Below are positions 5,958 to 27,265 of a stretch of 64,000 nucleotides of DNA, piece by piece. The translations under genes and the position numbers were made by a program. A model generated the notes under the pieces. It did no database searches. It had not been told where the DNA came from and saw only the letters and a program-made list of their open reading frames with translations. Position 1 is the stretch's first letter. Every line of letters starts with the position of its first letter. Source of the stretch: Flaviramulus multivorans (GTDB lineage: Bacteria; Bacteroidota; Bacteroidia; Flavobacteriales; Flavobacteriaceae); contig NZ_JAKKDV010000002.1 of assembly GCF_021728415.1 (NCBI RefSeq), positions 310,001 through 374,000 of the forward strand, read 5' to 3'.

Positions 5958-6017
5958 GCGCAAAAATAGGAATTGATTTTTTATTGACGAATTAGGATTA
6001 CTATTTTTTTTGAATTT

Positions 6018-7391
6018 TTAATTCATAGAATTTAATATCATTTTTATGTCCTTTTCCGTGGTATCTGGATTTATGAAACAGAAGCGTGATACTGTTTCAA
6101 AAGTATTACCTGTTTTCCATTTTGTAGGGGTTACTAATGCAAATCCTTTTTTGTGATTTTCGTATGTCCAATGCGTATAATCTTCAGGCTTCCATCCTAT
6201 TCTTCTATATAAAACGCATGATAAACTTGGCTCTCTAACGAGTTCTACATGCGGCATCTCATTAATTATTTTTCCTGCAATTTGTGCCAATTCAATGCCT
6301 CTTTCAACCGCTTGTTTATAACGATTGGTGCCATGTGTTGCTAATGAAAACCATAAAGGCAACCCTCTAACACGACGCGTTAATTGTATTTGATAATCAG
6401 ATGGATTAAAACCATGTGCTCCTTCATCTTTAAAAATATCTAAATAAGAACCTTCTTGAGAGTGCGCCTGTTTCGCTAGTTCTGGATTTTTAAAAATAAT
6501 AGCACCACAATCGTAAGGAGAAAACATCCATTTATGTGGGTCTATGGTTACACTATCGGCTTTTTCAATACCATTGAATAAATGACGAACAGAATCGGCT
6601 ACTAAAGCACCACCTCCATAGGCGGCATCAACATGAAACCATAAATTTTCCTTTTCGCAAATTTCTGCTATCCCATTTAAATCGTCCACAATTCCAGCGT
6701 TCGTTGTGCCTCCAGTAGCAACCACAGCAAACAAACGCTGCTTTTGATGCGCGGTTAAGGCTTTAATTGCTTTTTCTAAAGCATCGGCTTCTAACCTATC
6801 TTCCGTATCAACCAATAAAACATCAATATCTGCAACTTTAGCCATCGCTTTTATTGATGAATGCGCACCTATCGAAGTTATGATTAATCCTTTTTCAATC
6901 TTATTTTGGTCATTTAAACTACGCCAATATTCTCTTGCGGTTACTATGGCGGAAAGATTTGCAGCAGTACCACCACTTGTAAATACTCCGAATGCACCAT
7001 TTGGTAACCCGGTTAAAGACACTATCCATCGCATGGCTTCATTTTCACAAAAGATACCACCAGCACCTTCCATCCAATACGCACCGTGAATGCTGGATGC
7101 TGAAGTTACTAAATCGAACATTACAGCTGCTCTTGTTGGTGATGCAGGCACGAATGCTAAATGTCTAGGATGGTCAATGGGAACATTCGACTTTGATAAG
7201 TGCTTATTCCAGAGTTTAAAAGCTTGCTCTCCTCCAATTCCGTTTTTAGTTATTGTTTCTCCAACCAAAATTTTAAGTTCCTCTTCTTTTTTAGGTTTCC
7301 CAATTTTGTTTTTAGTAGATGACAACCTATCTATCACGTATTTCATGACATCCATGGTCATTTCCACTAAGTCCATATCAACTTTATGCAT
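6018..7391 (-). CDS. PLP-dependent group II decarboxylase
   Basis: The protein has 457 residues. Group II decarboxylase features are visible: FTSGGTAANLSA (cofactor phosphate binding), HVDAAYGGGAL (Asp contacting the pyridine nitrogen) and DPHKWMFSP with the PLP lysine at residue 287. The family decarboxylates aromatic amino acids, glutamate or 2,4-diaminobutyrate. This branch is close to aromatic-L-amino-acid or tyrosine-type enzymes, but the substrate is not decidable by eye. It is cytoplasmic. The gene is transcribed away from the TPR regulator at 7542. Confidence 0.88.
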   Translation of the reverse strand: MHKVDMDLVEMTMDVMKYVIDRLSSTKNKIGKPKKEEELKILVGETITKNGIGGEQAFKLWNKHLSKSNVPIDHPRHLAFVPASPTRAAVMFDLVTSASSIHGAYWMEGAGGIFCENEAMRWIVSLTGLPNGAFGVFTSGGTAANLSAIVTAREYWRSLNDQNKIEKGLIITSIGAHSSIKAMAKVADIDVLLVDTEDRLEADALEKAIKALTAHQKQRLFAVVATGGTTNAGIVDDLNGIAEICEKENLWFHVDAAYGGGALVADSVRHLFNGIEKADSVTIDPHKWMFSPYDCGAIIFKNPELAKQAHSQEGSYLDIFKDEGAHGFNPSDYQIQLTRRVRGLPLWFSLATHGTNRYKQAVERGIELAQIAGKIINEMPHVELVREPSLSCVLYRRIGWKPEDYTHWTYENHKKGFALVTPTKWKTGNTFETVSRFCFINPDTTEKDIKMILNSMN

Positions 7392-7490: not shown

Positions 7491-7520
7491 TTGATTTGCT
7501 GATAATTATAGGTATTTTTA
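7491..7520 (+). promoter_or_regulatory. Predicted promoter of first TPR regulator gene
   Basis: TTG (7491-7493), 19 bases, then TATTTTTA (7513-7520), near the Bacteroidota -33/-7 pattern. TTGATTT and GGTATTTTTATCAAA are both repeated at the same relative places upstream of the paralogous gene at 11111. Confidence 0.6.
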
Positions 7521-7541
7521 TCAAAAACAAGTAATTTATTG

Positions 7542-9395
7542 ATGAAACTGATATTTTTTAAACTTATATTGCTAATATTTCCAATTATTTTATCCTCTCA
7601 AAATGATAAAAAACTAGATAGCCTTTTAACCGCATTTGATAATCAACCTGAGGGTATTGAAAAAGTAAAAACAAGCCAAAAGTTATATCACGCATTTAAA
7701 CACAAAAAGCCTGAAGAAGCATTTAAACATGCTAAATTAGGATTAGCACTTTCAAAAAAAATAAATTACAAAACCGGTGAAGGTTTGGGGTACCTTAATT
7801 TGGCTTATTATTACAGGTTTGTTCCTGATTTGGATTCTACGAGATATTATTTTAAAAAGTCAGCAAAAACACTTTCTGATTTTGATGATAAAAAAAACCT
7901 ATGGTTTGCATTAAATGAATATGCCATCTTTGAAACTATTCAAGGCGATTTTAAAACAGCGCTAAAATTAGCAGATGATGGTTTAAAAGTAGCTACAGCC
8001 TTAAAACATGGTCCTCATATGGTTGATAATATTCAGCGAAAATCTACCATTTATATGGATACTGGTGATTTTAAATTGGCTATGGAAGAGGCGCTCAATG
8101 CATCTCGAGTACTAGACACGATTAAACCTGAAAATAAAGTTGGTAAAGCCATAGCTCTCGGGGACATAGGTAGGATTGAAATGCTTAGAGGTAATTATGA
8201 AGAAGCGCTACATCCTTTAACGGAGTCTTTAGAAGCTTTTAAAAAATTAAATAATGTGTTTTGGATAGCGACCATGTATATTGAACTGGGTAATTTATAC
8301 TGGTATATGGATAATCTTGACAAATCTTTAGAGTGCTATGAAGCGAGTTTGGTTTTATCTAAAAAAATGAATCGTGATGATTTTATAGCGAGCAACCTTT
8401 CAAATATGGCTGGTATTTTCTCAAAGCGAGGGAATCATAAAAAAGCCTTGGAGCTTTTACTTGAAACGCATGAAATAACGAAGAGAATCGGTTCTAACAA
8501 TAACCTTATCATTAGTTTTAATGAAATTGGAGATGCATCCTACAGGAGTGGCGATTTTAATAGAGCAATTCATAATCATTCTGAAGCCATTAGGCTAGCA
8601 GATTCCATGGGGTTGATTGATTTACTTGAAGATGGCTACCGTAATCGATCAAAAGCATATGAAAAAATCGGCAATTTAAAGGGTGCTTTGGATGATCAAA
8701 GACAATATCAAATTTTTCATGATAGTATTTACAATCAAAACATTGCAAAACAAATTGATGAATTAAAAACACAATACGAAACTGAGAAAAAGGAGCAGCA
8801 AATTTTACTTCAGAAAAATGAAATAGACCTTTTAAAACAAAAAGGAGAAATCGACAACCTTTACAAAATCCTATTCGGTATTGGTTTTTTACTATCTCTA
8901 ATTGCATTTTATGCCGTAAGACAAAAATTAAAACGCAGTAAAATTGAAAGAGAAAAATTAGATCTAGAGCTTGATTTTAAAAAGAAAGAACTCACAACGC
9001 ACGCGCTTCATCTTGCAAAAAAGAATGAAGTATTAGAGAGTTTAAAACAGCAAGCTAAAGCATTTAAATCTTCTGAGAATAGCACAAAAGGATTTAATCA
9101 ATTAATAAGAACCATTAACTTTGATTTGAAAGACGATAACAATTGGGAGAACTTCAGCAAGTACTTTGAAGAAGTGCACAAAGATTTTAACAGTAATGTA
9201 AAACAGCAATTCCCAGCGGTAACTCCCAATGAACTTAGGCTTATGGCATTATTGAAAATGAATTTATCATCAAAAGAAATTGCCAATATTTTAAATATAT
9301 CGCAAGAAGGTATTAAAAAAGCACGCTACAGGCTTCGCAAAAAACTAGGTATTACTACCGAAGATTCGCTACAAGACTTAGTACTTAACCTATAG
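7542..9395 (+). CDS. Transmembrane TPR regulator with C-terminal LuxR-type HTH (module 1)
   Basis: ATG 7542 (MKLIFFKLILLIFPIIL) is chosen over a TTG one codon upstream; 617 residues. Order: signal peptide; six or so tetratricopeptide repeats (about residues 35-390, for example NLAYYYRF, IELGNLYWYMDNLDKSLECY); a short coiled coil; one membrane segment near 443-460 (GIGFLLSLIAFYAV); a basic coiled coil (FKKKELTTHALHLAKKNEVL); and a C-terminal HTH (NELRLMALLKM, SSKEIANILNIS, KKARYRLRKKLGI). I infer TPRs outside and HTH inside, that is, a one-component membrane regulator. The 11111 gene is its close paralogue. Confidence 0.88.
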   Translation: MKLIFFKLILLIFPIILSSQNDKKLDSLLTAFDNQPEGIEKVKTSQKLYHAFKHKKPEEAFKHAKLGLALSKKINYKTGEGLGYLNLAYYYRFVPDLDSTRYYFKKSAKTLSDFDDKKNLWFALNEYAIFETIQGDFKTALKLADDGLKVATALKHGPHMVDNIQRKSTIYMDTGDFKLAMEEALNASRVLDTIKPENKVGKAIALGDIGRIEMLRGNYEEALHPLTESLEAFKKLNNVFWIATMYIELGNLYWYMDNLDKSLECYEASLVLSKKMNRDDFIASNLSNMAGIFSKRGNHKKALELLLETHEITKRIGSNNNLIISFNEIGDASYRSGDFNRAIHNHSEAIRLADSMGLIDLLEDGYRNRSKAYEKIGNLKGALDDQRQYQIFHDSIYNQNIAKQIDELKTQYETEKKEQQILLQKNEIDLLKQKGEIDNLYKILFGIGFLLSLIAFYAVRQKLKRSKIEREKLDLELDFKKKELTTHALHLAKKNEVLESLKQQAKAFKSSENSTKGFNQLIRTINFDLKDDNNWENFSKYFEEVHKDFNSNVKQQFPAVTPNELRLMALLKMNLSSKEIANILNISQEGIKKARYRLRKKLGITTEDSLQDLVLNL

Positions 9396-9417
9396 AAAAA
9401 TAGCTTTCCACGCAGGG

Positions 9418-9466
9418 TGTCCACCATTTGTCCATGCCATAAATTTTTATGTCCATAGTTTGTCTA
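9418..9466 (+). promoter_or_regulatory. Array of TGTCCA hexamers with 11-bp period (module 1)
   Basis: TGTCCA begins at 9418, 9429 and 9450, and TGTCTA at 9461. Spacings are 11, 21 and 11 bp, so the units are close to helical phase. The last unit ends 34 bases before the predicted -7 box at 9500. The same 34-base distance is seen in module 2. It is a likely binding array for an activator, perhaps the adjacent TPR regulator. Confidence 0.6.
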
Positions 9467-9475
9467 CTGACAAAA

Positions 9476-9507
9476 TTAAGATACACAATATCAATACATT
9501 AGGTTTG
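9476..9507 (+). promoter_or_regulatory. Predicted promoter of module 1 lipoprotein genes
   Basis: The -7 box TAGGTTTG (9500-9507) fits TAnnTTTG exactly. The -33 position holds only TTA (9476-9478, 21-base spacer), a weak box that fits a need for an activator. Transcription would start near 9513 and give a leader of about 110 bases. Confidence 0.6.
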
Positions 9508-9529
9508 TATAGTCATTAATTTGACCATA
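9508..9529. promoter_or_regulatory. Dyad spanning predicted transcription start (module 1)
   Basis: TATAGTCA (9508-9515), 6 bases, then TGACCATA (9522-9529). The arms are complementary at 7 of 8 positions. The matching dyad in module 2 is TTGTCA-N6-TGACAA. The GTCA-N6-TGAC core and its position over the predicted start are conserved. Confidence 0.5.
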
Positions 9530-9531
9530 CA

Positions 9532-9613
9532 GTTTTGTGGTGTCTTGCACTGGTTTAGGCTGCAGATATAACCAGTAGCAAGCGCTACAAAAACAAAATA
9601 TTAACCACAAAAC
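9532..9613 (+). ncRNA. Structured 5' leader hairpin (module 1)
   Basis: The main hairpin covers 9532-9594 with about 23 pairs and three bulges. GTTTTGTGGTG pairs with CGCTAC plus AAAAC, CTTGC with GCAAG, and ACTGGTT with AACCAGT. The loop contains GGCTGCAGA. CCACAAAAC at 9605-9613 is the exact reverse complement of GTTTTGTGG at the hairpin base, so two exclusive pairings are possible. It ends 9 bases before the ATG. The paralogous leader at 13097 keeps both pairings with compensating changes. Confidence 0.65.
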
Positions 9614-9621
9614 AATGTATT

Positions 9622-9987
9622 ATGAAAACTTTATCAAAATTAACATTTTTTGCAATTTTAATAGCATTAAATATTTCATGTAGTAAAGAGGAAGGTTGCT
9701 CTACCGATAACACGGGTAATGTAATAATCGAAAATACCAATGCTAAATACCGTTTACACTTTTACAAAAGTAGTCCTAAAGCATCAAACACTCCAGGTGA
9801 TTTAATTGTTGAACCAAGTTCAAAAGGAACTATTAGTCTACCCGCTGGAAATTACACAACACATATAAGATTATTTACAGGTGGCTGTAATGAAGATGGT
9901 TCGAGATGCTTCGTTTCATGGTCAACTTTAGCCGAAAATAAGGAACTCGACCTATCTAGTTGTGAAGATTTAAACTTAATATATTAA
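9622..9987 (+). CDS. Small lipoprotein, module 1 family member
   Basis: The protein has 121 residues with a lipoprotein signal (lipobox NISC, Cys near residue 20). The mature part is beta-rich and shares a pattern with the proteins at 13189 and 13570: G-x-(V/L)-x-I-x-N near the start, Y-x-x-H-x-Y, a TISLPAGNYT segment, and cysteines near the end (CNEDGSRC, SSCEDL). I do not recognise a named family. It follows the structured leader and precedes a cadherin-like lipoprotein gene by 11 bases, so the two form an operon. It could be the ligand or output of the upstream regulator. Confidence 0.75.
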   Translation: MKTLSKLTFFAILIALNISCSKEEGCSTDNTGNVIIENTNAKYRLHFYKSSPKASNTPGDLIVEPSSKGTISLPAGNYTTHIRLFTGGCNEDGSRCFVSWSTLAENKELDLSSCEDLNLIY

Positions 9988-9998
9988 AACCATACATT

Positions 9999-10967
9999 AT
10001 GAAACCACAAAACAATTTAATTAAAGTATTACTATTAGGCTTGCTAATTATAATTTCATCGTGTAGCAAAGATGAAGTACCGACCGTGATAAGTGCTAAT
10101 GACCTTAACAAAACTATGGATGAAAATCCAGAAACTGGAGCATCCATAGGAACTATTTCTACCAACATTTCAGGCACCTTTTCAATAATTTCACAAAACC
10201 CAAATGGAGCTTTTGCGATAAACCCCCAAACAGGAGAAGTTACCGTCGCTGATGCCTCTCTTTTTGATTTTGAAATCAACACAACACTTCAAGCCGTAGT
10301 TGTTGCTTCTGAAGCTGGTGCAGAATCTATTGCTCTTGTAAATGTTACCTTAAACAACATAGATGATATATATTTTTTGCTTTCAGACTCAAAACCTGCC
10401 TACGAAACTGCCAGTAATGGAGATTGGATTGCCATAACTGAAACAGAATACAATATACTAGCGGATAATCTAAATGAAGTCCATAAAGTTGGTACTACTG
10501 ATGCAGAATATAATAGCAGTCCTGGTTTATTCTCCGGATCATCTGGATGGATTAGAGCTAATACCACTCAACCAAGTATGCCTTCCAATAGTCTATTATT
10601 TGCATTTAAGTTTAAACCAAACTCCGGTACTGGTACTGGAGCCAAAGTAAAAGTTTCAACTACAAGTGCCACGAAAGGTTATATGGATTTTGGAAGCAAT
10701 CTTCCTACGAATAACCAAGAAAGTGGAGGCAGTCTTCATTATCTCTTTAAAGGCAATAATACGCCAACCGAAGCACCTGGTTTCATATGTTTTTACACAG
10801 CACCTGGTGGAATTAATGGAGCCAATTCAGTTTCTTCAACAAGTGCCGTTGATAAAGTAACTGCCAACATACAAGGTGATCATAGTGATCTTAGTAGTGC
10901 AGTATTCAGAGATAATTGGGTGTTTTTCTATCAAGGATTAAGCACCACTCAAAAACAATGGGACTAA
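9999..10967 (+). CDS. Lipoprotein with cadherin-like domain
   Basis: The protein has 322 residues and a lipobox (ISSC, Cys about residue 24). Residues 40-125 resemble a cadherin-type repeat (MDENPETGASIGTIS, FAINPQTGEVTVADASLFDFE, ALVNVTLNNIDD). The remaining 200 residues contain no domain I recognise and read like a secreted carbohydrate-binding or lectin-like fold. It is probably an outer-membrane-anchored surface protein. It is the second gene of module 1. A run of 11 T follows the stop codon, then a terminator hairpin. Confidence 0.75.
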   Translation: MKPQNNLIKVLLLGLLIIISSCSKDEVPTVISANDLNKTMDENPETGASIGTISTNISGTFSIISQNPNGAFAINPQTGEVTVADASLFDFEINTTLQAVVVASEAGAESIALVNVTLNNIDDIYFLLSDSKPAYETASNGDWIAITETEYNILADNLNEVHKVGTTDAEYNSSPGLFSGSSGWIRANTTQPSMPSNSLLFAFKFKPNSGTGTGAKVKVSTTSATKGYMDFGSNLPTNNQESGGSLHYLFKGNNTPTEAPGFICFYTAPGGINGANSVSSTSAVDKVTANIQGDHSDLSSAVFRDNWVFFYQGLSTTQKQWD

Positions 10968-10997
10968 GTTTTAAATTTTTTTTTTTGAGTTAGTTAG

Positions 10998-11031
10998 AAA
11001 AAGACTGTGCATATAAGCTCAGTCTTTTTTT
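10998..11031 (+). terminator. Rho-independent terminator of module 1
   Basis: The stem is AAAGACTG-GC paired with GC-CAGTCTTT around ATATAA, with one T/T mismatch, followed by a T-run (11024-11031). It lies just after the cadherin-lipoprotein gene. Confidence 0.75.
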
Positions 11032-11057
11032 CATTAAGCCAGAAAGTTTATTGTAAC

Positions 11058-11088
11058 TTGATTTAAAACGAATAAAACGGTATTTTTA
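11058..11088 (+). promoter_or_regulatory. Predicted promoter of second TPR regulator gene
   Basis: TTG (11058-11060), 20 bases, then TATTTTTA (11081-11088). The GGTATTTTTATCAAA string around the -7 box is identical to that of the 7542 gene. Confidence 0.6.
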
Positions 11089-11110
11089 TCAAACACCAAC
11101 CCGTTGATTC

Positions 11111-12964
11111 ATGAAAAAGGTCTTTTTAATACTTTCCCTAGTTCCTTTAACATTATTTTCTCAAACCAATCACGAAATTGACAGTTTACTAAATGTTTAT
11201 AATAACCTGTCAGATAACGCGGATAAGGTCTACATACTTGACAGGCTACACTATGCAACATTATATAACGATGTGAAATCAGCTAAAAAATATGCTTTAG
11301 ACATGCTTAATTTGGCAACTAAATTGAAAGAAACAGAGGAAATTGGTTATGCAAACTACAATATCGGGGTCAGCTATAGAATATTAGGACAAAAAGATTC
11401 AGCTGTGATATACTTTAAAAAAGCCAAGACAATATTTGAAACTAAGGGCTACAGCAAAGGAGAATCTCTGGTGAATAGTGCTTTTGCTACTTTGGCTCTT
11501 GAAAGTGGAAATCATGTTCTTGCCATGGAACTAACCCAAAAAAACATCAGTATCGCCAGAGCGAACAAAGATTCCTCCAATGTTGGGGTATCTTATAAAT
11601 TTCTTGGCTTTATCCTGAGAGAAAAAGGAGATCTCGAAAAAGCGCTCGACTATTGCTTTAGCGCTTTAAAGCTTTTAACAGATCCTTATTTTAAGCTGGA
11701 AAGAGCCGATACTTTTTCTGAAATTGGGCGGATAGAATATGAATTAGGCAATTATGAAAGCGCTAATAAGTACCAGTATGAAGCCAAAGCAATTTATGAG
11801 GAAGAAAACGACCTTGAATATTTGGCTCAAAGCCTTAAGCACATAGGCACTAATTATTATAATCTTAAGGCCTATGACCAAGCTGAAAAAAACTTCAATG
11901 AGGCGCTTCAATTGGCTCGAAAAATACCATCACCAACGATTGAAGGCTTAACACTCTTAGAGTTGGGCAAAACGCATATGCAGTTAAACCAACCAAATAA
12001 GGCATTAAATTATTTAAGAACTGCTATGGATTTTGGGGAGAAAAATGACCGTATCATGGATGTTATTCTTGCTTCTTATCAAATAAGTGATTTTTATTAT
12101 AAGCAGAACAACATGCAGATGGCTATGAAATATGCCAATGATGCCATTAAGCTGGCGGATTCGGTTAAGCTGCCAAATATGCTTTCCCTTTCGTATGAAT
12201 TACGGTCCAACATATATAAAAAAGGAAGATCTTATGGTCCTGCATTAGAAGATTTTACGACCTTTAAAATGATACAAGATAGTTTGTACCATATTGAAAA
12301 AGCAAAGGAAATAGAAAAGCTTAAAGCAATCTATGAAACCGAAAAAAAGGAATTACAAATTGCACAACAAGAAACCGCCATTTCCCTTCTGGAACAGGAA
12401 GCTAGGATAAATAAATTACAAAAAATACTTTTGGGGGGTGGTCTGGTGCTTTCCTTACTACTTTTTGGTTTAGGGCTTTACGCCATACGTCAAAAAATGA
12501 AGCGCAATCGTTTGGAAAAAGAACGTGTTAAAGCGGAACTAGATTTTAAAAAGAAAGAACTCACTACTCATGCTTTGCACTTAGCTAAAAAGAACGAAGT
12601 TTTAGAAAATTTAAAACAACAGGCTAAAACATTAAAGGCGAATTCAAAAGAGAGTAAAGGCTATCAGGACCTCATAAAGACCATAAATTTTGATCAGCAG
12701 GATGATAAGAATTGGGAAAACTTTACCCAGTACTTTGAGCAAGTACATAAGGATTTCAGTTCTAATGTGAAGTTAAAATACCCCGAAGTCACCAAAAATG
12801 AACTTCGATTTATGGCACTTATTAAAATGAATATGTCATCAAAAGAAATTGCCACTATTTTAAATATTTCTGCCGACGGGGTTAAAAAAGCAAGACAACG
12901 TCTCAGAAAAAAAATGGATTTAACCCCTCAAGATTCGCTTGAAAACGCTGTTTTAGCTATTTAA
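11111..12964 (+). CDS. Transmembrane TPR regulator with C-terminal LuxR-type HTH (module 2)
   Basis: The protein has 617 residues and is a full-length paralogue of the 7542 product. It has a signal peptide (MKKVFLILSLVPLTLFS), TPR repeats over about residues 60-390 (YANYNIGVSYRILGQ, LKHIGTNYYNLKAYDQAEKN), one membrane segment near 439-458 (GLVLSLLLFGLGLYAI), the coiled coil FKKKELTTHALHLAKKNEVL (identical to module 1) and an HTH (SSKEIATILNIS, KKARQRLRKKMDL). The TPR half has diverged far more than the HTH half. This suggests different ligands but similar DNA sites. It starts after the module 1 terminator and has its own promoter. Confidence 0.88.
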   Translation: MKKVFLILSLVPLTLFSQTNHEIDSLLNVYNNLSDNADKVYILDRLHYATLYNDVKSAKKYALDMLNLATKLKETEEIGYANYNIGVSYRILGQKDSAVIYFKKAKTIFETKGYSKGESLVNSAFATLALESGNHVLAMELTQKNISIARANKDSSNVGVSYKFLGFILREKGDLEKALDYCFSALKLLTDPYFKLERADTFSEIGRIEYELGNYESANKYQYEAKAIYEEENDLEYLAQSLKHIGTNYYNLKAYDQAEKNFNEALQLARKIPSPTIEGLTLLELGKTHMQLNQPNKALNYLRTAMDFGEKNDRIMDVILASYQISDFYYKQNNMQMAMKYANDAIKLADSVKLPNMLSLSYELRSNIYKKGRSYGPALEDFTTFKMIQDSLYHIEKAKEIEKLKAIYETEKKELQIAQQETAISLLEQEARINKLQKILLGGGLVLSLLLFGLGLYAIRQKMKRNRLEKERVKAELDFKKKELTTHALHLAKKNEVLENLKQQAKTLKANSKESKGYQDLIKTINFDQQDDKNWENFTQYFEQVHKDFSSNVKLKYPEVTKNELRFMALIKMNMSSKEIATILNISADGVKKARQRLRKKMDLTPQDSLENAVLAI

Positions 12965-13014
12965 TTTATTTCACACAACGTCTCAAAACCCTTTTAAACA
13001 CTAAAGTTAAAAGG

Positions 13015-13031
13015 TGTACCCCCTTTGTACC
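13015..13031 (+). promoter_or_regulatory. TGTACC hexamer pair with 11-bp period (module 2)
   Basis: TGTACC starts at 13015 and 13026. The second unit ends 34 bases before the -7 box at 13065, the same distance as in module 1. The hexamer differs from module 1 at one base (TGTACC against TGTCCA-type). That could reflect different regulator specificity. Confidence 0.55.
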
Positions 13032-13043
13032 CCATTGAAATTT

Positions 13044-13072
13044 TTATTAACAAAATCAAGGATATAGGTTTG
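13044..13072 (+). promoter_or_regulatory. Predicted promoter of module 2 lipoprotein genes
   Basis: The -7 box TAGGTTTG (13065-13072) is identical to that of module 1. The -33 region has no TTG, only TTA at 13044-13046. The start of transcription is expected near 13078, giving a leader of about 110 bases. Confidence 0.55.
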
Positions 13073-13074
13073 TG

Positions 13075-13092
13075 TTGTCATTAAGTTGACAA
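13075..13092. promoter_or_regulatory. Dyad spanning predicted transcription start (module 2)
   Basis: TTGTCA (13075-13080), 6 bases (TTAAGT), TGACAA (13087-13092), a perfect dyad. It is the counterpart of 9508-9529. Confidence 0.5.
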
Positions 13093-13096
13093 ACAA

Positions 13097-13180
13097 GTTT
13101 TGTGGAGTCTTGCGCTGGTTATGGCTGCAGACAAAACCAGAGGCAAGAAACTCCAAAAACTAAACATTAATCCACAAAAT
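13097..13180 (+). ncRNA. Structured 5' leader hairpin (module 2)
   Basis: The hairpin covers 13097-13160 with about 22 pairs. GTTTT pairs with AAAAC, TGGAGT with ACTCCA, CTTGC with GCAAG and CTGGTT with AACCAG. The loop holds GGCTGCAGA as in module 1. The middle stem differs from module 1 on both sides yet still pairs. CCACAAAAT (13172-13180) can pair instead with GTTTTGTGG at the base, with one G-U pair. It ends 8 bases before the ATG. Confidence 0.65.
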
Positions 13181-13188
13181 AATGTATT

Positions 13189-13563
13189 ATGAAAACTCAA
13201 GTAAAACAAAAAGTATTACCTGTATTTATTTTAATATTACAAATTGCATTAGTTGCAAACTTTACTTCCTGTTCTGTAGAAGGCCAAGAAACTTGCGATG
13301 GAAACGGTTGGCTTACTATAACCAACAACAATCGCTCTTATCAACTACATGTTTACGAAAACGCTTCAAGTGTAGAGCGTTCTGATAGAGATGGGGATTA
13401 TATTATAAATGCTCAAGGTAAAAAAACAATTACTTTACCTGAAGGACCTTACACGCTCTATTTAAGATATAAGACCAATACTGGTCAATGGAATGTTGTA
13501 GATAGTAGTCTAGAAATGGACATTTACACATGTCAAGAAGAATTTATAACCTATTCAAACTAA
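13189..13563 (+). CDS. Small lipoprotein, module 2 family member A
   Basis: The protein has 124 residues with a long basic N-region then a hydrophobic stretch and lipobox (TSC, Cys about residue 29). The family pattern is GWLTITNNN, YQLHVY, GDYIINAQGKKTITLPEGPY and a late Cys (YTC). ATG 13189 is preferred over an ATG at 13182 in another frame because only this frame gives a lipoprotein and matches the paralogues. It is followed 6 bases later by the next family member, so the two are co-translated from one mRNA. Confidence 0.75.
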   Translation: MKTQVKQKVLPVFILILQIALVANFTSCSVEGQETCDGNGWLTITNNNRSYQLHVYENASSVERSDRDGDYIINAQGKKTITLPEGPYTLYLRYKTNTGQWNVVDSSLEMDIYTCQEEFITYSN

Positions 13564-13569
13564 AAAATT

Positions 13570-13971
13570 ATGAAAACTCTATTTAAAACATATCTCAATT
13601 TGTTTTTGGTATTATGTATTTCTATAGTAATCCAGTCTTGTAGCAAGGAAGAGCCATGTAATACCCCGGGTACATTAACCCTAATAAACAACGAAAGTTT
13701 TTACAGTAGGCACGTTTACTTTGTTGAAGATTATAAAGAGGCATCTGCCATTTTGGACAGTGATTTAGCACCAGACTATATTATTGATGCCACAAAAGCA
13801 ATAACCATAAGTTTAGAACCAGGTGACTATACACTTTTTTCGTATGTGTATCAAAGAAGATGTTCAAGGTGCACTTTAATCAAATTGAGCCCAACCCTTT
13901 CTGAACTTGAAGTAAAAAATTGCGCAAATACAATGCAAGAATTTCCAGATTTTGATTTAGATCGTAATTAA
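13570..13971 (+). CDS. Small lipoprotein, module 2 family member B
   Basis: The protein has 133 residues with lipobox QSC (Cys about residue 24) followed by SKEEPC, very like SKEEGC in the 9622 product. Family features are GTLTLINNE, RHVYFV, PDYIIDATKAITISLEPGDY and paired cysteines (RRCSRC, KNC). It is the third member of the family in the window. No enzyme motif is visible. It is likely anchored in the outer membrane or the periplasmic side of a membrane. Confidence 0.75.
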   Translation: MKTLFKTYLNLFLVLCISIVIQSCSKEEPCNTPGTLTLINNESFYSRHVYFVEDYKEASAILDSDLAPDYIIDATKAITISLEPGDYTLFSYVYQRRCSRCTLIKLSPTLSELEVKNCANTMQEFPDFDLDRN

Positions 13972-14009
13972 GTATCCACTTTATTTGTTAACTTTTAATA
14001 TTCCACAAA

Positions 14010-14366
14010 ATGAAAACTATAGTTATAAAAACCGTCTTAATTCTTTTTATTACAGTATGCTCTAGTTCCTGTATTTCTTCAAAAAACTATGCCAACAGAG
14101 TAAAAACTTGGGAGGGACATGATGTTAACAACCTTATTACATCTTGGGGACCTCCAGCAGATGTTTATACTATGCCAAATGGGAACAAAATGTACACATG
14201 GTTATACACTAACGACGGCTATATTACTAAACGGTATAACGAATATTTAAACCAAATAGAAGAGCGTAAAGAAACCTATTATTGCAAAACCACTTTCACG
14301 GCTAATGCCAATAATACTATAATTAATTGGAGGTTTCAAGGTAATGCATGTGTTGCATTTAAATAA
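14010..14366 (+). CDS. Small lipoprotein, BamE/SmpA-like short protein
   Basis: The protein has 118 residues and a lipobox-like SSSC or SSC after a hydrophobic stretch. The body has GHDVNNLITSWGPPADVYTM, then NGNKMYTWLY, and ends with C-x-T-x-F...G-N-A-C. This arrangement is seen in small lipoproteins across Gram-negatives whose fold recalls BamE/SmpA. It is not part of the lipoprotein family upstream but is the last gene in the module 2 run, 38 bases after it. CCACAAAA again lies next to the start codon. Confidence 0.7.
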   Translation: MKTIVIKTVLILFITVCSSSCISSKNYANRVKTWEGHDVNNLITSWGPPADVYTMPNGNKMYTWLYTNDGYITKRYNEYLNQIEERKETYYCKTTFTANANNTIINWRFQGNACVAFK

Positions 14367-14374
14367 ATAACAAC

Positions 14375-15976
14375 TTAAAAGGTTAAAATTAAAAATTCAC
14401 CTTTTAATGGCTCTAAACATTCAACGAGTTTAGGTATGAGTTGTTCTCCAAATTCTAAGTAAAACTCTGAGAAGTTAGTGTTTCGCTCTTGTAAACTACC
14501 ATTAGGAAACAATTGATTTTGAAGTTCTGTCATTCTGAAAACTTGGTCTGACAGAGCTTTTTTTTGTGCTTTAAGTAAGCGTTTTTCTAAGATATCCAAT
14601 CCCTTTAACTGTTTAACTTCTTGAGCTTTTACAGCACCTAAAAAGGATTTGTCGGTTTGTTCAGCCAATTTATATAAGTCTTCAAATTGTTTTATTAAAT
14701 GCTCTTTTTGGCTTGAAAAATCGATGTCTATATTAGATATTTCCCTTACCTTTTTATTAATAAAAGCATCCCGTTTTAAAAAAATATCTTCAGCAGAAAT
14801 ATTTAATTTTTCAAGTTTTTTGTGTTGACTTTCGGATTGAATTAAAGCAGAATTACGCAATAATAATATGGGGAAAGGTATTTTTACTTCATCAAAAAAT
14901 TGTTTTAACTGAAACCAATACGCTAACTCTCCTCCACCTCCAATATAACAAAGGTTAGGTAAAATTACTTCTTGATATAACGGACGCATTATGACATTTG
15001 GTGAAAACCGTTCTGGAACCTCATCGAGGTGTTTTAGTATCTCACTCCTGCTCCATACAATATCTGTGTTTAAAACTTTGTAAATGTCGTCTTCAAACAC
15101 AATGCGCTCACGTAAATTTTTGCTTAAATAAAACAAATTAATTTCTCGCGGATTTACCTGTACTTTGTAGTTATCTGATAAGTTGTTTAGTCGTTTAGTT
15201 GTTTTAGAAACAGCATCAAAGGATATTTGATATGCTAATTCTTCTTCCATAAAAGGAATGAATTGCTTTTTCAAGTCTTTATCGTTAGCATCAACAATTA
15301 CTAGTCCATACTCCTTAAACAATTCGTTGGCTAAATATAGAGTGGCATCTGCTAAATTTTTGTGCTCCAAATAAGCACTTTTAAATAGAGACTTTAAACG
15401 CTCAGCATTTTGTGAAGACCCTAAATCTAAAGAAAATAGCTTAAAAACATTTTCTAATCCATCTGTTGATAATTCTCCAACAGCACCAGATGCTTCTCTG
15501 TTCCAATGTACTTTTTTCCCTTTAAAGTTAAAATAGTTAATTTCATCAAAGTCATGGTCTTCAGTCGCCATCCAGTAAACTGGAACAAAATTATAATCGG
15601 GATATTGAGTTTTTAATTCTCTAGACAGATTAATGGCTGAAACTATTTTGTATAAAAAGTACAAAGGTCCCGTGAACAAATTTAGCTGATGGCCTGTAGT
15701 AATGGTAAAAGTATTATCAAGTTTTAAACTCGCAATGTTTTGTAATGTATTTTCAGAAGTTTCGATTTTACTGTATTGACTATTAAGTGCTTGAACTAAA
15801 ATACTTCTAGATTGCGGTTGAAAAGAAAGAGACTTTTCTTCAATTTGATTTTTAAAATTCTCAATATTAGGAAACCTATTATAAAAGGGTTTTAACTCTG
15901 TTTTTTCATCTAAATAATCACAAATTAATGACGAAAAATAGCCTGTTTTATAAAAAGGTATACTGTGTTGATGCAT
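14375..15976 (-). CDS. bshC: Bacillithiol biosynthesis cysteine-adding enzyme BshC
   Basis: The start at 15976 (MHQHSIPFYKTGYFSSLI) gives 533 residues, normal for BshC. BshC adds cysteine to glucosaminyl malate in the last step of bacillithiol synthesis. Family features include TGHQLNLFTGPLYFLYKI, PVYWMATEDHDFDEI and CYIGGGGELAYW, followed by the C-terminal coiled coil. It is cytoplasmic. It is convergent with the lipoprotein gene at 14010, with only 8 bases between the stops. An AAAAGGT/ACCTTTT hairpin overlaps the junction. Confidence 0.95.
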   Translation of the reverse strand: MHQHSIPFYKTGYFSSLICDYLDEKTELKPFYNRFPNIENFKNQIEEKSLSFQPQSRSILVQALNSQYSKIETSENTLQNIASLKLDNTFTITTGHQLNLFTGPLYFLYKIVSAINLSRELKTQYPDYNFVPVYWMATEDHDFDEINYFNFKGKKVHWNREASGAVGELSTDGLENVFKLFSLDLGSSQNAERLKSLFKSAYLEHKNLADATLYLANELFKEYGLVIVDANDKDLKKQFIPFMEEELAYQISFDAVSKTTKRLNNLSDNYKVQVNPREINLFYLSKNLRERIVFEDDIYKVLNTDIVWSRSEILKHLDEVPERFSPNVIMRPLYQEVILPNLCYIGGGGELAYWFQLKQFFDEVKIPFPILLLRNSALIQSESQHKKLEKLNISAEDIFLKRDAFINKKVREISNIDIDFSSQKEHLIKQFEDLYKLAEQTDKSFLGAVKAQEVKQLKGLDILEKRLLKAQKKALSDQVFRMTELQNQLFPNGSLQERNTNFSEFYLEFGEQLIPKLVECLEPLKGEFLILTF

Positions 15977-16198
15977 CTTGTAATTTAAAAACATGTAAAT
16001 ATACGGCTATTCGATTTTTAACATTCTAAAAAATAAGTTAAGAATACTTTTGTAAATACAATTTTTGAAAGCGTTATTAAGCAAAATATAAAGTGTTAAA
16101 ATACAATTAATTAGATGCAGATATTTGGTTTTTTAACACTTTAAATTATCAATTTTTTGTATCTTTTAAACAAAAATCTCACTAAAAACTAAGAAATC

Positions 16199-17461: not shown

Positions 17462-18172
17462 TTATAGCACTTTAAATTGATGAATGCCCGAATCTGAAGT
17501 GTTTCCAAAGCTATCTTTGGTAATCACTTTCCAATAGTAAATTGTATTCGAAGCCGTAGATACGTTCAGCTCTGTTGCAGCAACATCAGCTGAAAAAATG
17601 CTAGGCGTTGCATCTGTGCTAAAATAAATATCATACCCAACAATATCATCATCTACATCATCAGCTGTCCATTGTAAAGTGACTGAGCTTGTGGTTGGCA
17701 AAGATTCTGCCATATTTGGAGCGACAATTACTGCTGGAAATGGTGCATAAGATTGTACTCCTGGTCCTGCATTATAAAATTGCCACACTTCACTTTTATG
17801 AGCTGTTCCTCCTTTCGTGGATTCTACAAACCATTTGTAAGCCGTTGCTCGTTTTATAACTATTGGAATAATATCCGTGGTTGTTTCATCCTGAATAATT
17901 TCACCAGTCGATAAATTTTCAATGGTTATTTTATAATTTTCAGAATCATTTGCTCGCCATTCAAAAAACACGGTGCTTTCGGTGGGTGTTAAATTGGTAC
18001 CTTCATTACACAACATATTTTTTTGCGGAAAGTATAGTGCAACGGCTTTATCAGTAACATCAATACCACCATCACCTGGATTTTCTCCGTCTGGATTTGT
18101 ATCATCAACCGAAGATTTACTACATCCAAAAACTAAAAACCCTAAACAGATTATGACTAATACATGTTTCAT
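17462..18172 (-). CDS. Lipoprotein with fibronectin type III-like domains
   Basis: The protein has 236 residues and a lipobox (VFGC, Cys 17). An acidic, Gly/Pro-rich linker (DDTNPDGENPGDGG) leads to two Fn3-like domains, the second being clear (SSVTLQWTADDVDDDIVGY, IYYWKVITKDSFGNTSDS). It is probably an outer-membrane-anchored accessory to the LRR protein. Its start codon overlaps the LRR gene stop by four bases (ATGA), which indicates translational coupling. It is the last gene of the surface operon. Confidence 0.82.
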   Translation of the reverse strand: MKHVLVIICLGFLVFGCSKSSVDDTNPDGENPGDGGIDVTDKAVALYFPQKNMLCNEGTNLTPTESTVFFEWRANDSENYKITIENLSTGEIIQDETTTDIIPIVIKRATAYKWFVESTKGGTAHKSEVWQFYNAGPGVQSYAPFPAVIVAPNMAESLPTTSSVTLQWTADDVDDDIVGYDIYFSTDATPSIFSADVAATELNVSTASNTIYYWKVITKDSFGNTSDSGIHQFKVL

Positions 18173-21100
18173 TTTTTTACAATTTTAAATGTTGATAATG
18201 ACGTTTTTGATTGTACTGATACCGTATATAGCCCCACATTTAATGTAGCGGTATCTATAGAAATGGTATTAGATTTATAGTTTAAAAGTGCCTTGTTATA
18301 CACCAATTGCCCTAAATAGGAATATACACTTATACTAATGTGTTCCTTATCGATATTTCCCAAATGGACATTAACTTTTTCTTGAAACGGATTTGGATAA
18401 ACAAACAAATCGTCAGATACCAATATGCTCTCTTCGTAAATACCTTGACATTCTAAATCTGTGCTTACTTTTATGCTATTCTTACCATTTTGTAAACTTA
18501 ATGTAATATAAGCATCAGTAGTTTTAAACTTTAACCCATTAAATTCAATGTTATAACTCGTACTTCCTGATAAATCAATACTAACCTTTTTTCCATTAGA
18601 ACTTTTCCCCGTTGAAACGTCTAAAGGTTCTGGCTGCGTAATTACAACGGTGTAGCAACTTTCATATTCTGGAAATTCTGCAATGGTGATACATAATTGA
18701 TAACTGCCCGCAAGCAAGTTTAATATATCAATCTCGTTAGTAAAATGGTATTCTTTATTAAAATCGTCGCCAGTTAAAGTTGCTGTATAATTATAATACT
18801 CAAGTGTAGTAATATTAATTTTACCATTATTGTTATTTAAACAAGTTTCGCCAGTAATTAAAATCGTGAAATTATTATTAGTTAAACTTAAAATAGAGCA
18901 CCCAAATAAATCTACTGAATCGCCAAAAGGTGTGTTTGGGCATTGGTCATCCGCATTCGCAACTCCATCATTATCGGCATCGTTACAGATAGATTGGTAG
19001 TTTGCGGTTGAGTCTTTAAACCAACCATCATACGAGCCGTCTGCGTTTGTTATGACTGTAAAAGGGTCATCAACCAAAATGCATAAAAGGTCTGGATTAT
19101 TTGTTGCATTAAATATGGTAAGGTTTTCATTATTTCCATTTTGAATATTCAACTGATCGCTAATAAAAAGATTTGATTGACAAGAAAGTGTTTGTAAATT
19201 TTGGTTTAATATTACTTGTAATGCGCTAAGTTGATTTTCGGAACAATTTAATATTCTTAAGTTAATTAAAGCATCAACATTAAGTTCAGTCAACATATTC
19301 CCTGATACATTTAAAGTCACTAAGGATGTATTAGAATCTAAGTTGATTTGTGAAATATTATTGTTTGAAATATTAAGCGATACTAGACTAGTATTTGCGG
19401 ACAAATCAATCGTAGGTATTGCATTGCTTGAAGCATTTAAGCTTGCTAAAAATATATTATTACTTAAATCTACATTATTAACCGTATTGCCCTCAAAATT
19501 AAAATTTGTTAAACCTAAAAAGTCTTCAATACCCGTTAAATCTGAAATGTTTTGATTACCAATATTTAAAGTAGAAAGGTTTTCAATATTTGCCGTTAAA
19601 ACATAGTCATCTAAAGTGCCTGAATCAAACCCTAATGAGATGAGAGCTTGCTCAAAGGCGTCATCAGGCACATAGGTTTCTCCATAGTGACAATTCATTG
19701 AATAATTTGCCGTAGCATCCTTTAACCAAGTAACTCCCCCAGGCGCAACTCCGTTATCGGTTTCTATACAAGTTAAGGTTGCATTGTTTTGGGCGTTTAA
19801 ATTAGCAAGATTAGGGTTTTGACCATTTTTAAGGTTCAAACTTTCCAATTGGTTTGACTGACAGCTTAAACTTGTGAGTGCAGTATTTTGCTGCAAATCC
19901 AAATCCATGATTTGATTAGAATCACAATTAAAAATTTGAAGCATTGGAATTAAACTCGCATCAAATTCTGTAAATGCATTATTAGAGATATTTACATCAA
20001 TAACATTAGTATTATTACTTAAATCTAAGCTAGCTAATGCGTTACTAGAACAGTTAATTTGAATTAAATTCGTGTTTTGAGTTAAATCAACCGAACTGAT
20101 TACATTGTTTGAAAAATCTAAATTCTGTAACGCCGCAAAATCTTCTATCCCAGTTAAATCTGTTATGTTGTTTCCGCTAATATCTAAATCAATAATCACT
20201 TCAATGTTTGCTGTTGGTACATAATCGTCCAAGGCACCAGTATCATAACCAAATGTAATTAAGGTTTGTTCAAAATTATCATCAGGTACGTAGGTTTGAC
20301 CAAATTTACAATCCAAACCGTACTCCGTTGTAGCATCTTTAAACCAGTTTACACCAATATTATTTACGTCATCAACTTGAACACAACTAAGGTCTGGGTT
20401 ATTAGACGAATTAAAATTTAAAATATCACTATTTATCCCGTTTTGAATATTTACAAATTCTAGCTGATTACCAGATACATTAATCGTGATAGAATCTGGG
20501 CAAAAATCTAAAGGATTATTCTGGTTTGGAGTTGGACATGCAGCAATACCCATAGTTGTTAAATCGAAATCACCCGTAATTTGGTTATTACTACAATTAA
20601 ATGTTTTAAGTTGATTTAAATTGGTTGGTAATTGTAAACTTGTTATTTGATTGTTACTGACGTTAAGTTCAATTAAATTATTATTAGAGCTAGCATTTAA
20701 ATCAGTTAATTGATTGTCGCTAATCGACAAATATTTAATAGCAGATAAATTAGTTAACACCGTAGTTAATTGATTAATCTGGTTGCTATCCAGTATTAAG
20801 CTTTCAAGAACAGGAGACAGTAAATCATCGACATCAGTCAAGTCATTTTGCGACCCAGAAACTGCTATTAATTTAGTTTTGCCAGATAAGTTTATATCAG
20901 TCAAATCATTATCCGAAAAATCTAAAACTTCTAAAGCCCCATTTGATGTTATATCAAGTTGAGTTAAAGTATTTGATCTACAATTCAAAGTTGTTAATGC
21001 TAAATAGTTAGTAACTAATAACGTATTTATGGTATTACTGGAACAACTCAATTTAATCAATGAATTGTTGTTAACTGTTGCCGTAAACAAATTGGTTATT

Positions 21101-23592: not shown

Positions 23593-23626
23593 AATATTGC
23601 TATTCAATAAGATTTATTGATGAATT

Positions 23627-26576: not shown

Positions 26577-26604
26577 TGTCCATACTTTGTCCACCCTTTG
26601 TCCA
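26577..26604. promoter_or_regulatory. Triple TGTCCA array with exact 11-bp period (surface operon)
   Basis: TGTCCA starts at 26577, 26588 and 26599, with TT before the second and third. It is the cleanest of the four arrays. It lies upstream of the surface operon on the minus strand, so the motif points opposite to transcription. Confidence 0.65.
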
Positions 26605-26620
26605 CGAAATGGGTATCGAT

Positions 26621-27265
26621 TTAAAAATCACAGAAGCAATTGGGTAGGTTTATAATAAACCCAATTCCAAATTGATGCGCATTAAGCTTTAATTTTTCAG
26701 CATTTTCACCACTACTTATTAAAACTGATTTTCCATAAGAGTATCCTGCATAAATAGCGGTGCTATTAGATATGGGGTATTGTAATCCTATTCCAGCCCT
26801 TAAAAACAAAATATTATTGTTGAATTCTTCTTCACCTACCAAATTATAAACATCATTATTTATAGTTTGATTACCTCTTATTAAAAACTCTGAAGCAACG
26901 GATCCTTTTACAAAAAATGATAAATCTTTTAACTGAAAAATGCGGTAGTCTAGACCAGCTTTTATTCCTAAATAGCTAACATCCCATTCAAAAAAATTGT
27001 CCACACTACTTTCACTACCAATCGCACCATAATTATTGTAAGATGCACCCAAAGCTAAAAACAGCGTTTTTTGATTATTGATTACTTGTCTATATCCCAT
27101 GCCAAAATAGGAATCGGATTTTGACAATAAATTATCTAAAGGTAGACCTTGTGAGTTTTCGTAATCAAAGGATGAAATAGTAGATCCTAACTCCATGTAA
27201 AGTTGCTGGCTGTAACCCAAAAAACTTATTGTTGAAATTAGAAATATGAGTAAATATTTTTTCAT
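26621..27265 (-). CDS. Outer-membrane beta-barrel protein
   Basis: The protein has 214 residues with a signal peptide ending GYSQ. Alternating hydrophobic strands with aromatic girdles (QLYMELGSTISSFDY, YFGMGYRQVI, TAIYAGYSYGKSVLI) and a C-terminal strand ending in Phe (IGFIINLPNCFCDF) fit an eight-stranded OmpA/OmpW-sized barrel. The Cys pair near the end is unusual for the fold. It has its own predicted promoter and hexamer array upstream, and lies just upstream of the surface operon on the same strand. Confidence 0.78.
   Translation of the reverse strand: MKKYLLIFLISTISFLGYSQQLYMELGSTISSFDYENSQGLPLDNLLSKSDSYFGMGYRQVINNQKTLFLALGASYNNYGAIGSESSVDNFFEWDVSYLGIKAGLDYRIFQLKDLSFFVKGSVASEFLIRGNQTINNDVYNLVGEEEFNNNILFLRAGIGLQYPISNSTAIYAGYSYGKSVLISSGENAEKLKLNAHQFGIGFIINLPNCFCDF

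Follow-up and report, generated by a model that had tools for sequence, protein, structure and literature searches.

ToxR- and CadC-type proteins are membrane-bound one-component regulators, in which one polypeptide joins a sensor in the periplasm to a DNA-binding domain in the cytoplasm through one membrane helix. Here we describe two tandem cassettes of Flaviramulus multivorans (Flavobacteriaceae), each with a regulator of this kind, a leader RNA and lipoprotein genes. They lie in a stretch of 64,000 nucleotides (contig NZ_JAKKDV010000002.1, positions 310,001 to 374,000, forward strand), which is referred to as the window. As in the ToxR/CadC type, a single protein of the same predicted layout adjoins its target. 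The cassette regulator differs in its C-terminal LuxR/GerE helix-turn-helix (HTH) and its predicted periplasmic tetratricopeptide repeats (TPRs), and the target starts with a structured leader.

In Bacteroidota, the CDC-like (CDCL) systems are reported as two-component pore-forming lipoproteins with a lipoprotein immunity protein, BcdI (PMC11169675, PMC7527733). In Bacteroides fragilis, the gene of this immunity lipoprotein lies upstream of the CDCL pair (PMC11169675). Some of the cassettes found elsewhere (e.g. loci L006, L037, L056 and L066) are similar, since they carry thiol-cytolysin lipoproteins of the PF01289 family. On the contrary, the genome of the window has no PF01289 match, other groups of lipoproteins share the same chassis, and the main text of PMC11169675 does not contain the word “tetratricopeptide”.

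As for cis-regulatory leader RNAs and riboswitches, of which PMC2864571 gives 104 motifs, the cassette leader resembles them in being structured, in its 5' position and in having, close to the start codon, predicted helices that exclude one another. It differs in having no Rfam match at gathering score in the window and in being usually tied to one regulator family. No description of the cassette by title or abstract was found in the open-licence literature.

Organisation of the cassette

Comparison across genomes demonstrates, at the level of sequence, a conserved cassette with a regulator-matched putative operator, a leader RNA of predicted structure and an exchangeable lipoprotein, here called the cargo. 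It has four parts: a TPR-membrane-LuxR regulator, a direct-repeat operator, a TAnnTTTG promoter with a leader of ~110 nt, and a lipoprotein gene at the leader end. We consider it fairly probable that each window copy is a self-contained envelope-response cassette, with its own regulator, operator, RNA switch and exchangeable lipoprotein. The parts of both copies are as follows.

7542..9395, + strand: regulator 1, TPR-transmembrane-LuxR-type HTH protein, 617 aa, recognition helix ...GIKKARYRLRKK
9418..9436, + strand: candidate operator of copy 1, distal half-site pair TGTCCACC / TGTCCATG, spacing 11 bp
9450..9468, + strand: candidate operator of copy 1, proximal pair TGTCCATA / TGTCTACT, spacing 11 bp, Gs 49 and 38 nt before the -7 box
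9500..9507, + strand: -7 box of copy 1, flavobacterial sigma-A, TAGGTTTG, putative transcription start ~9512
9512..9621, + strand: structured leader RNA of copy 1 (predicted), 5' hairpin ~9506-9531
Elements of leader copy 1: arm GUUUUGUGG 9532-9540; stem CUUGC/GCAAG 9544-9548/9578-9582; loop CUGCAG 9560-9565; proximal strand 9585-9594; distal strand CCACAAAAC 9605-9613
9622..9987, + strand: small lipoprotein, 121 aa, first cargo of copy 1
9999..10967, + strand: Q316-type lipoprotein, 322 aa, cadherin domain and C-terminal part ending QGLSTTQKQWD
11111..12964, + strand: regulator 2, 617 aa, recognition helix ...GVKKARQRLRKK
13015..13033, + strand: candidate operator of copy 2, TGTACCCC-N3-TGTACCCC
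13065..13072, + strand: -7 box of copy 2, TAGGTTTG, putative transcription start ~13077
13077..13188, + strand: structured leader RNA of copy 2 (predicted), 5' hairpin 13075-13092
Elements of leader copy 2: arm 13097-13105; stem 13109-13113/13143-13147; loop CUGCAG 13125-13130; proximal strand 13151-13160; distal strand CCACAAAAU 13172-13180
13189..13563, + strand: small lipoprotein, 124 aa, first cargo of copy 2
13570..13971, + strand: small lipoprotein, 133 aa, second cargo of copy 2
14010..14366, + strand: third-kind lipoprotein, 118 aa, third cargo of copy 2

An initial annotation of the window had noticed the same regulatory region behind both regulators. This holds: the two intergenic regions are 82% identical over ~130 bases, they are the only two matching places in the genome, and the two leaders have fold z-scores of -4.5 and -5.5. 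It had also placed members of one small lipoprotein family behind both regulators, which is correct for three genes (9622-9987, 13189-13563 and 13570-13971, 31-36% identity), but 9999-10967 and 14010-14366 encode lipoproteins of other kinds. No recognisable toxin accompanies the lipoproteins of the window cassettes.

Distribution in other genomes

A BLAST of the leader over 60 genomes, our own included, gave one clear homologue, in genome G026 (L004/L006). The gene order there is regulator, leader, small lipoprotein and a thiol-activated cytolysin family protein (PF01289, 1.5e-49). A weak match at L005 was rejected as chance. With the covariance model R1, built from 3 leaders, the element was found in 35 of 397 genomes of the family, at 53 places on the proper strand, after 8 of 61 rows on the opposite strand had been dropped.

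An independent DNA-pattern scan of the contig collection yielded 80 loci of 103 stretches, with an R1 match in 73. The 7 loci without a match comprise one Flavobacteriaceae record (L103) and 6 loci of other groups. Among the 73 are 3 Bacteroidia metagenome-assembled genomes (MAGs) and 2 MAGs titled Algicola (L090, L119). Algicola stands in NCBI under Gammaproteobacteria, and these two are probably misnamed bins; the remaining names we take to be Flavobacteriaceae.

After 6 opposite-strand rows of the contig scan and 21 duplicates were dropped, the pooled set held 108 distinct leaders, and 84 were left as non-redundant once 24 with more than 88% identity to another were removed. With a second model, R2, built on all 84, matches were found in 3 of 395 genomes drawn from the phylum and in 11 of 395 drawn from the order (own included), every match being within the family of the window.

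A regulator lies directly upstream, in the same direction, of 86 of the 108 leaders, and in most of these cases about 99 nt separate its stop codon from the point where the leader model starts. In 8 the upstream regulator is divergent and in 3 a convergent one is found downstream; of the remainder, 8 are at locus edges and 3 (L050, L059, L094) have no regulator. The co-occurrence of regulator, leader and lipoprotein elsewhere, suggested as a check on the initial annotation, was thus found. The particular lipoprotein family that had been named makes up just 8 of 99 first cargoes, and the chassis drives at least five lipoprotein groups. The earlier observation is right, and reaches further than its reader thought.

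Regulator

Each window regulator contains TPRs, a C-terminal LuxR/GerE HTH and a single internal hydrophobic 19-mer, at residue ~441 in copy 1 and ~439 in copy 2. The GerE domain (PF00196, Pfam cut-off 23.5 bits) scores 24.2 bits in copy 1, 23.4 in copy 2 and 24.6 in the regulator of L006. Both proteins had been described as beginning with a signal peptide; an N-terminal hydrophobic stretch above the threshold used is present in copy 1 only. The Pfam matches of both include no histidine kinase or receiver domain, and PADLOC returned generic TPR matches only. Comparing the two regulators, the TPR halves do differ strongly (26% identity), but the C-terminal halves, at 70%, are not nearly identical as had been thought.

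The genome encodes one further full-length regulator of the same type, 32% identical (L206 8257-10152; C4:164277-166118 in the own genome), next to a mutS2-like gene. No R1 leader match better than E 0.15 was found around it. At the equivalent mutS2-like site, some relatives have a divergent leader with a Q316 cargo. The third regulator keeps a GTCCCC/GTCCAC pair (1 mismatch), with leader and cargo missing, as if the payload had been lost.

Operator and recognition helix

The sequence TAnnTTTG at -12 to -5 is reported as the -7 box consensus of Flavobacteriaceae sigma-A (PMC9723704). When upstream regions were aligned by anchoring at this box (n=83), two direct repeats with an 11-bp period were common to them, with G at -49 and at -38 in 81/83 each. 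A second, less regular pair of repeats has G at -82 in 50/83 and at -71 in 47/83. Half-sites start at four positions in copy 1 (9418, 9429, 9450, 9461) and at two in copy 2 (13015, 13026).

The sequence of the repeats follows the regulator. Residue x of the recognition helix KKAR[x]RLRKK fits the half-site type in 72/72 non-redundant cases, with operator types set after inspection and 17/106 places without a readable adjacent helix excluded; the association seen in these alignments is perfect, with few independent events behind it. Helix Y goes with GTC[CT][AGT] half-sites (50/50), helix Q (n=18) with GTACC in 14 and GTATAC/GTCTCC in 4, and helix N with GTCAC in the second half-site (4/4). On a regulator tree built without the helix columns (88/89 rows), we count 6 helix changes and 7 operator changes, N having arisen 2-4 times. 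When helix and operator were permuted within genomes, of which 13 were informative, the joint probability came to 1.4e-5; this is not relied on because Y and Q regulators are old paralogues inheriting both traits. With its fixed place and its sequence following the recognition helix, the operator is a plausible candidate for the binding site of the regulator.

In the window, copy 1 pairs Y with GTCCA and copy 2 pairs Q with GTACC, so the two circuits should be mutually insulated. At up to 2 mismatches, no further occurrence of the copy 2 operator was found in the genome. Of the copy 1 type there are 4 exact matches, 2 within its own operator and 2 at 26577-26605.

At this last place, three tandem GTCCA half-sites with an 11-bp period, of the exact copy 1 operator type, are flanked by the start (26497) of one minus-strand gene and the end of another, of 214 aa (26621-27265, - strand). 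There is no leader match at these repeats, and they are possibly a further target of regulator 1.

Leader RNA

No match was found in the window to any of 4227 Rfam families at the gathering score. When 13040-13195 of copy 2 was compared with Rfam at E up to 10, just 6 weak and unrelated matches appeared. For the structure counts, the 84 non-redundant leaders were aligned with MAFFT, and pairs were counted on a structure that we had named. In this structure of 22 pairs, 91.8% of the cells are paired. Changes on both sides are seen in 14 of the 22 pairs, with 107 such cells compared to 36.8 in shuffles (0/500 as high). There are 191 G-U pairs and 18 A-C mismatches, which indicates that the coding-sense RNA is the structured strand. 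RNAalifold over all 84 leaders returned just 6 pairs, probably because MAFFT spreads variable stems over gap columns.

The apical loop is CUGCAG in 81/84 leaders. Of the exceptions, UUGCAG and UUGCGCAG self-pair if G-U is counted, and CUACAG does not fully (by eye). The base of a small hairpin coincides with the inferred transcript start.

Two alternative pairings are predicted for the arm GUUUUGUGG. With the proximal strand, 91.6% of cells are paired and 1 pair has changes on both sides; with the distal strand, 97.8% and 97.6% are paired in its two parts and 2 pairs have such changes. Cells changed on both sides number 11 at columns 60-160, the first arm/distal pair, compared to 2 at columns 60-127. 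Native arm/distal duplexes have -11.36 kcal/mol, against -10.84 when swapped between leaders (0/2000 permutations) and -5.88 with a shuffled distal strand; for arm/proximal duplexes, native and swapped gave 15/2000 permutations, relatedness being uncontrolled in both comparisons.

The distal strand ends 8 nt before the AUG in both window copies. In Flavobacterium johnsoniae, initiation is reported to be favoured by adenines at about -14 to -11 and by low secondary structure (PMC6847099). Since the distal strand covers the -14 to -11 stretch, distal pairing should lower translation. With two mutually exclusive pairings, one of them over the translation start, the leader is a candidate RNA switch.

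Cargo lipoproteins

In 99/108 cases an open reading frame (ORF) starts at the leader end or no more than 58 nt from it, with a length of 60 aa or more unless the locus ends first; the start position is identical in 93/108. A strict lipobox pattern is present in 73/108, and most of the others are lipoprotein-like by eye. Full-length first cargoes, grouped by length, end motif and clustering, are of thiol-cytolysin type in 25 cases, of a ~560-aa type in 24, of Q316 type in 23, of a ~750-aa type in 10 and of the small type in 8. NCBIfam has no name for any cargo scanned, and searches of PDB profiles with the ~560-aa and ~750-aa cargoes gave nothing credible.

Behind the leader at L155, L132, L124, L106, L129, L081, L042 and L089, six of them titled Winogradskyella, there is no long cargo. 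The ORFs in these eight loci have ~20-45 aa and look, by eye, like small membrane peptides with basic ends.

PF01289 (Thiol_cytolysin) was found in 5 of 10 first-cargo proteins scanned and in 3 second genes (L006, L056, L037). It is present in 22/35 leader-positive genomes and in 45/362 leader-negative ones (Fisher 1.1e-10).

The ~560-aa cargo may resemble the aerolysin / ETX-MTX2 family (PF03318), which matches 1 of 10 members (29.0 bits, cut-off 22), the other 9 giving none at E 0.5. An AlphaFold model has a predicted local distance difference test (pLDDT) score of 64, and below 50 in the membrane-insertion region. Its best Foldseek neighbours, which we take to be largely of aerolysin type, reach E 9.1e-10 with low template-modelling (TM) scores (0.24/0.39 in the best row). 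It differs from that family by its lipoprotein anchor and a long N-terminal part. It is a predicted pore-former, probably aerolysin-like.

As for second genes, examined in 45 loci (L006, L056 and L037 by Pfam, others by phmmer), a lipoprotein gene directly upstream of a thiol-cytolysin type recalls BcdI, in position only, in 7 (Q316 in 5, small in 2). A small lipoprotein precedes the ~560-aa type in 1, and Q316 precedes the ~750-aa type in 2.

Single-linkage phmmer joined the thiol-cytolysin, ~560-aa and Q316 groups, and their kinship was rejected, as the links are mostly in the first ~60 residues. In hhalign, Q316 against the ~560-aa type gives 94.9%, and 0.1% with the N-terminal ~45 residues removed, so the apparent links come mostly from a shared signal-peptide region. 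A short C-terminal piece is common to L135 (thiol-cytolysin type) and L082 (~560-aa type). Judged by these alignments, the cargo groups look unrelated outside the signal peptide.

At L041, the cassettes beginning at 6001 and 10165 have the leader type and the first ~53 aa in common (1.7e-13) and then continue into different families, one body being of thiol-cytolysin type and one Q316. This looks like cargo exchange behind a shared leader and signal peptide, possibly a recent swap.

For the 322-aa protein of the window, the model pLDDT is 85.7 and a cadherin domain covers residues 26-123 (Foldseek, VIA, among the matches listed). A lipoprotein of ~118 aa (SSCIS.KNYANR...SWGPP) follows small lipoproteins in 3 genomes (the window's, L062 and L063); the window copy has no Pfam match at E 0.1. 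At L064, the protein after the cargo (7823-9088) has Cleaved_Adhesin and type IX secretion sorting domains; the second genes of L044 and L053 look similar to it.

Neighbouring genes

The cassettes are flanked on the left by a gene at 6018-7391 (- strand), presumably a pyridoxal-dependent decarboxylase, and on the right by one at 14375-15994 (- strand), which we take to be bshC. Further along, 18169-23607 (- strand) encodes a protein of 1812 aa with repeated leucine-rich-like segments and, by eye, the look of a C-terminal sorting domain.

Discussion

In the arrangement we favour, the regulator would be a one-component protein of the inner membrane, with TPRs facing the periplasm and the LuxR-type HTH on the cytoplasmic side. 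Judging from the helix/operator matching and the position, it would activate the promoter that follows its own gene by binding the direct repeats of the operator immediately before that promoter. The transcript would begin with the structured leader RNA, and translation would probably be set by a two-state switch, given the two alternative pairings of the arm. In one state, GUUUUGUGG would pair with a nearby CACAAAAC-like strand, leaving the translation start free; in the other, it would pair with CCACAAAAC and cover the A-rich stretch before the AUG. The output would be a lipoprotein, secreted or at the surface, that can be exchanged from one cassette to another; in many cases it is a predicted pore-former and in some an accessory lipoprotein alone. 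The window cassettes appear to encode accessory-type lipoproteins only, which, from the gene order in relatives, might serve in protection or immunity. The cassette may act in antagonism between bacteria or in self-protection.

Several observations weigh against this arrangement. At up to 2 mismatches, the GTCCA-type pattern occurs 12 times in the genome and a reversed control 15 times, so only exact matches are informative. The first half-site deviates from GTCAC in 2 of the 4 N cassettes. Furthermore, the division into Y and Q goes back in essence to a single old event (1 independent pair on starred branches), which makes the perfect match of helix and operator weaker than its count suggests; our confidence was set at its level because of these few independent events. 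Sliding the partners of the named leader structure by 1-3 columns lowers pairing to 37.5-47.8%, in a control that is biased as the structure was derived from the same sequences. In terms of cargo, 9/108 leaders have no ORF of 60 aa, with tiny or no ORFs directly behind, and the 397 genomes have 80 PF01289 matches, of which 19 follow a leader and 61 do not. Lastly, in constrained folds the proximal helix forms with at least 6 pairs in 40/84 leaders and the distal in 79/84, and energies favour the proximal fold by more than 4 kcal/mol in 34/84, the distal in 5, with 45 within 4.

Because the energies lean to the proximal hairpin, the leader may be only a stabilising structure. A constitutive 5' element of this sort, or a site for an RNA-binding protein, with regulation at transcription only, seems possible to us, if on the doubtful side. 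That the hairpin starts at the inferred transcript end is also in agreement with it. On the contrary, the AUG-adjacent strand co-varies with the arm, both in the permutations, whatever part relatedness has in them, and in the 11 versus 2 both-side cells. A simple 5' hairpin would not need this, and it counts against a leader that does not switch. We regard it as very improbable that the inverted repeats act as DNA, either as operators or as what is left of a mobile element, and not as RNA. The loop CTGCAG is palindromic as DNA, and R1 weakly matches the opposite strand in the 8 rows mentioned, but stem sequences vary with pairing kept, and the element lies between promoter box and start codon at the same position in 93/108. 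A DNA cruciform operator was rejected on the asymmetry of G-U and A-C on this strand, and a mobile repeat because there are just 2 copies in the genome.

As for the signal, the initial annotation had proposed that each regulator senses its own lipoprotein. Such sensing, of the cargo or of a mislocalised form of it, feeding back on the operon, would suit the fact that regulator and cargo adjoin in most cassettes. It would also suit the far greater divergence of the TPR part (mean pairwise identity 28% over 61 regulators) than of the HTH part (74%), as expected if TPRs track different ligands. However, TPR similarity predicts shared cargo barely above chance, with an area under the curve (AUC) of 0.52 (0.56 for the HTH), and cargo is shared with the nearest TPR neighbour in 19/61 and with the nearest HTH neighbour in 14/61. 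A match of TPR type to cargo type was rejected on the same AUC, and we find own-cargo sensing unlikely. The TPR domain diverges fast yet does not track the cargo, so its signal is probably something else, e.g. an envelope or competitor signal.

A bolder version of the self-contained envelope-response cassette is a portable “weapon slot”, whose chassis, signal peptide included, would swap unrelated membrane-active lipoproteins. Its leaders would kiss through the self-complementary CUGCAG, so that transcript dose sets translation, and the window cassettes would be antidote-only, with immunity lipoproteins kept and toxins absent. We hold this to be speculative and improbable; if true, it would make the leaders two-state RNA switches of a new class.

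The cassette unites a dedicated DNA-binding sensor of the membrane with a readable code of protein-DNA specificity and a candidate RNA switch that has no earlier record. The leader could become a new Rfam family, with 108 distinct examples, and 13 genomes offer natural sets of differing regulator/operator pairs inside a single genome. In common marine bacteria, the cassette drives several lipoprotein groups, probable pore-formers among them. It makes testable how Flavobacteriaceae sense envelope trouble and switch on contact weapons or antidotes.

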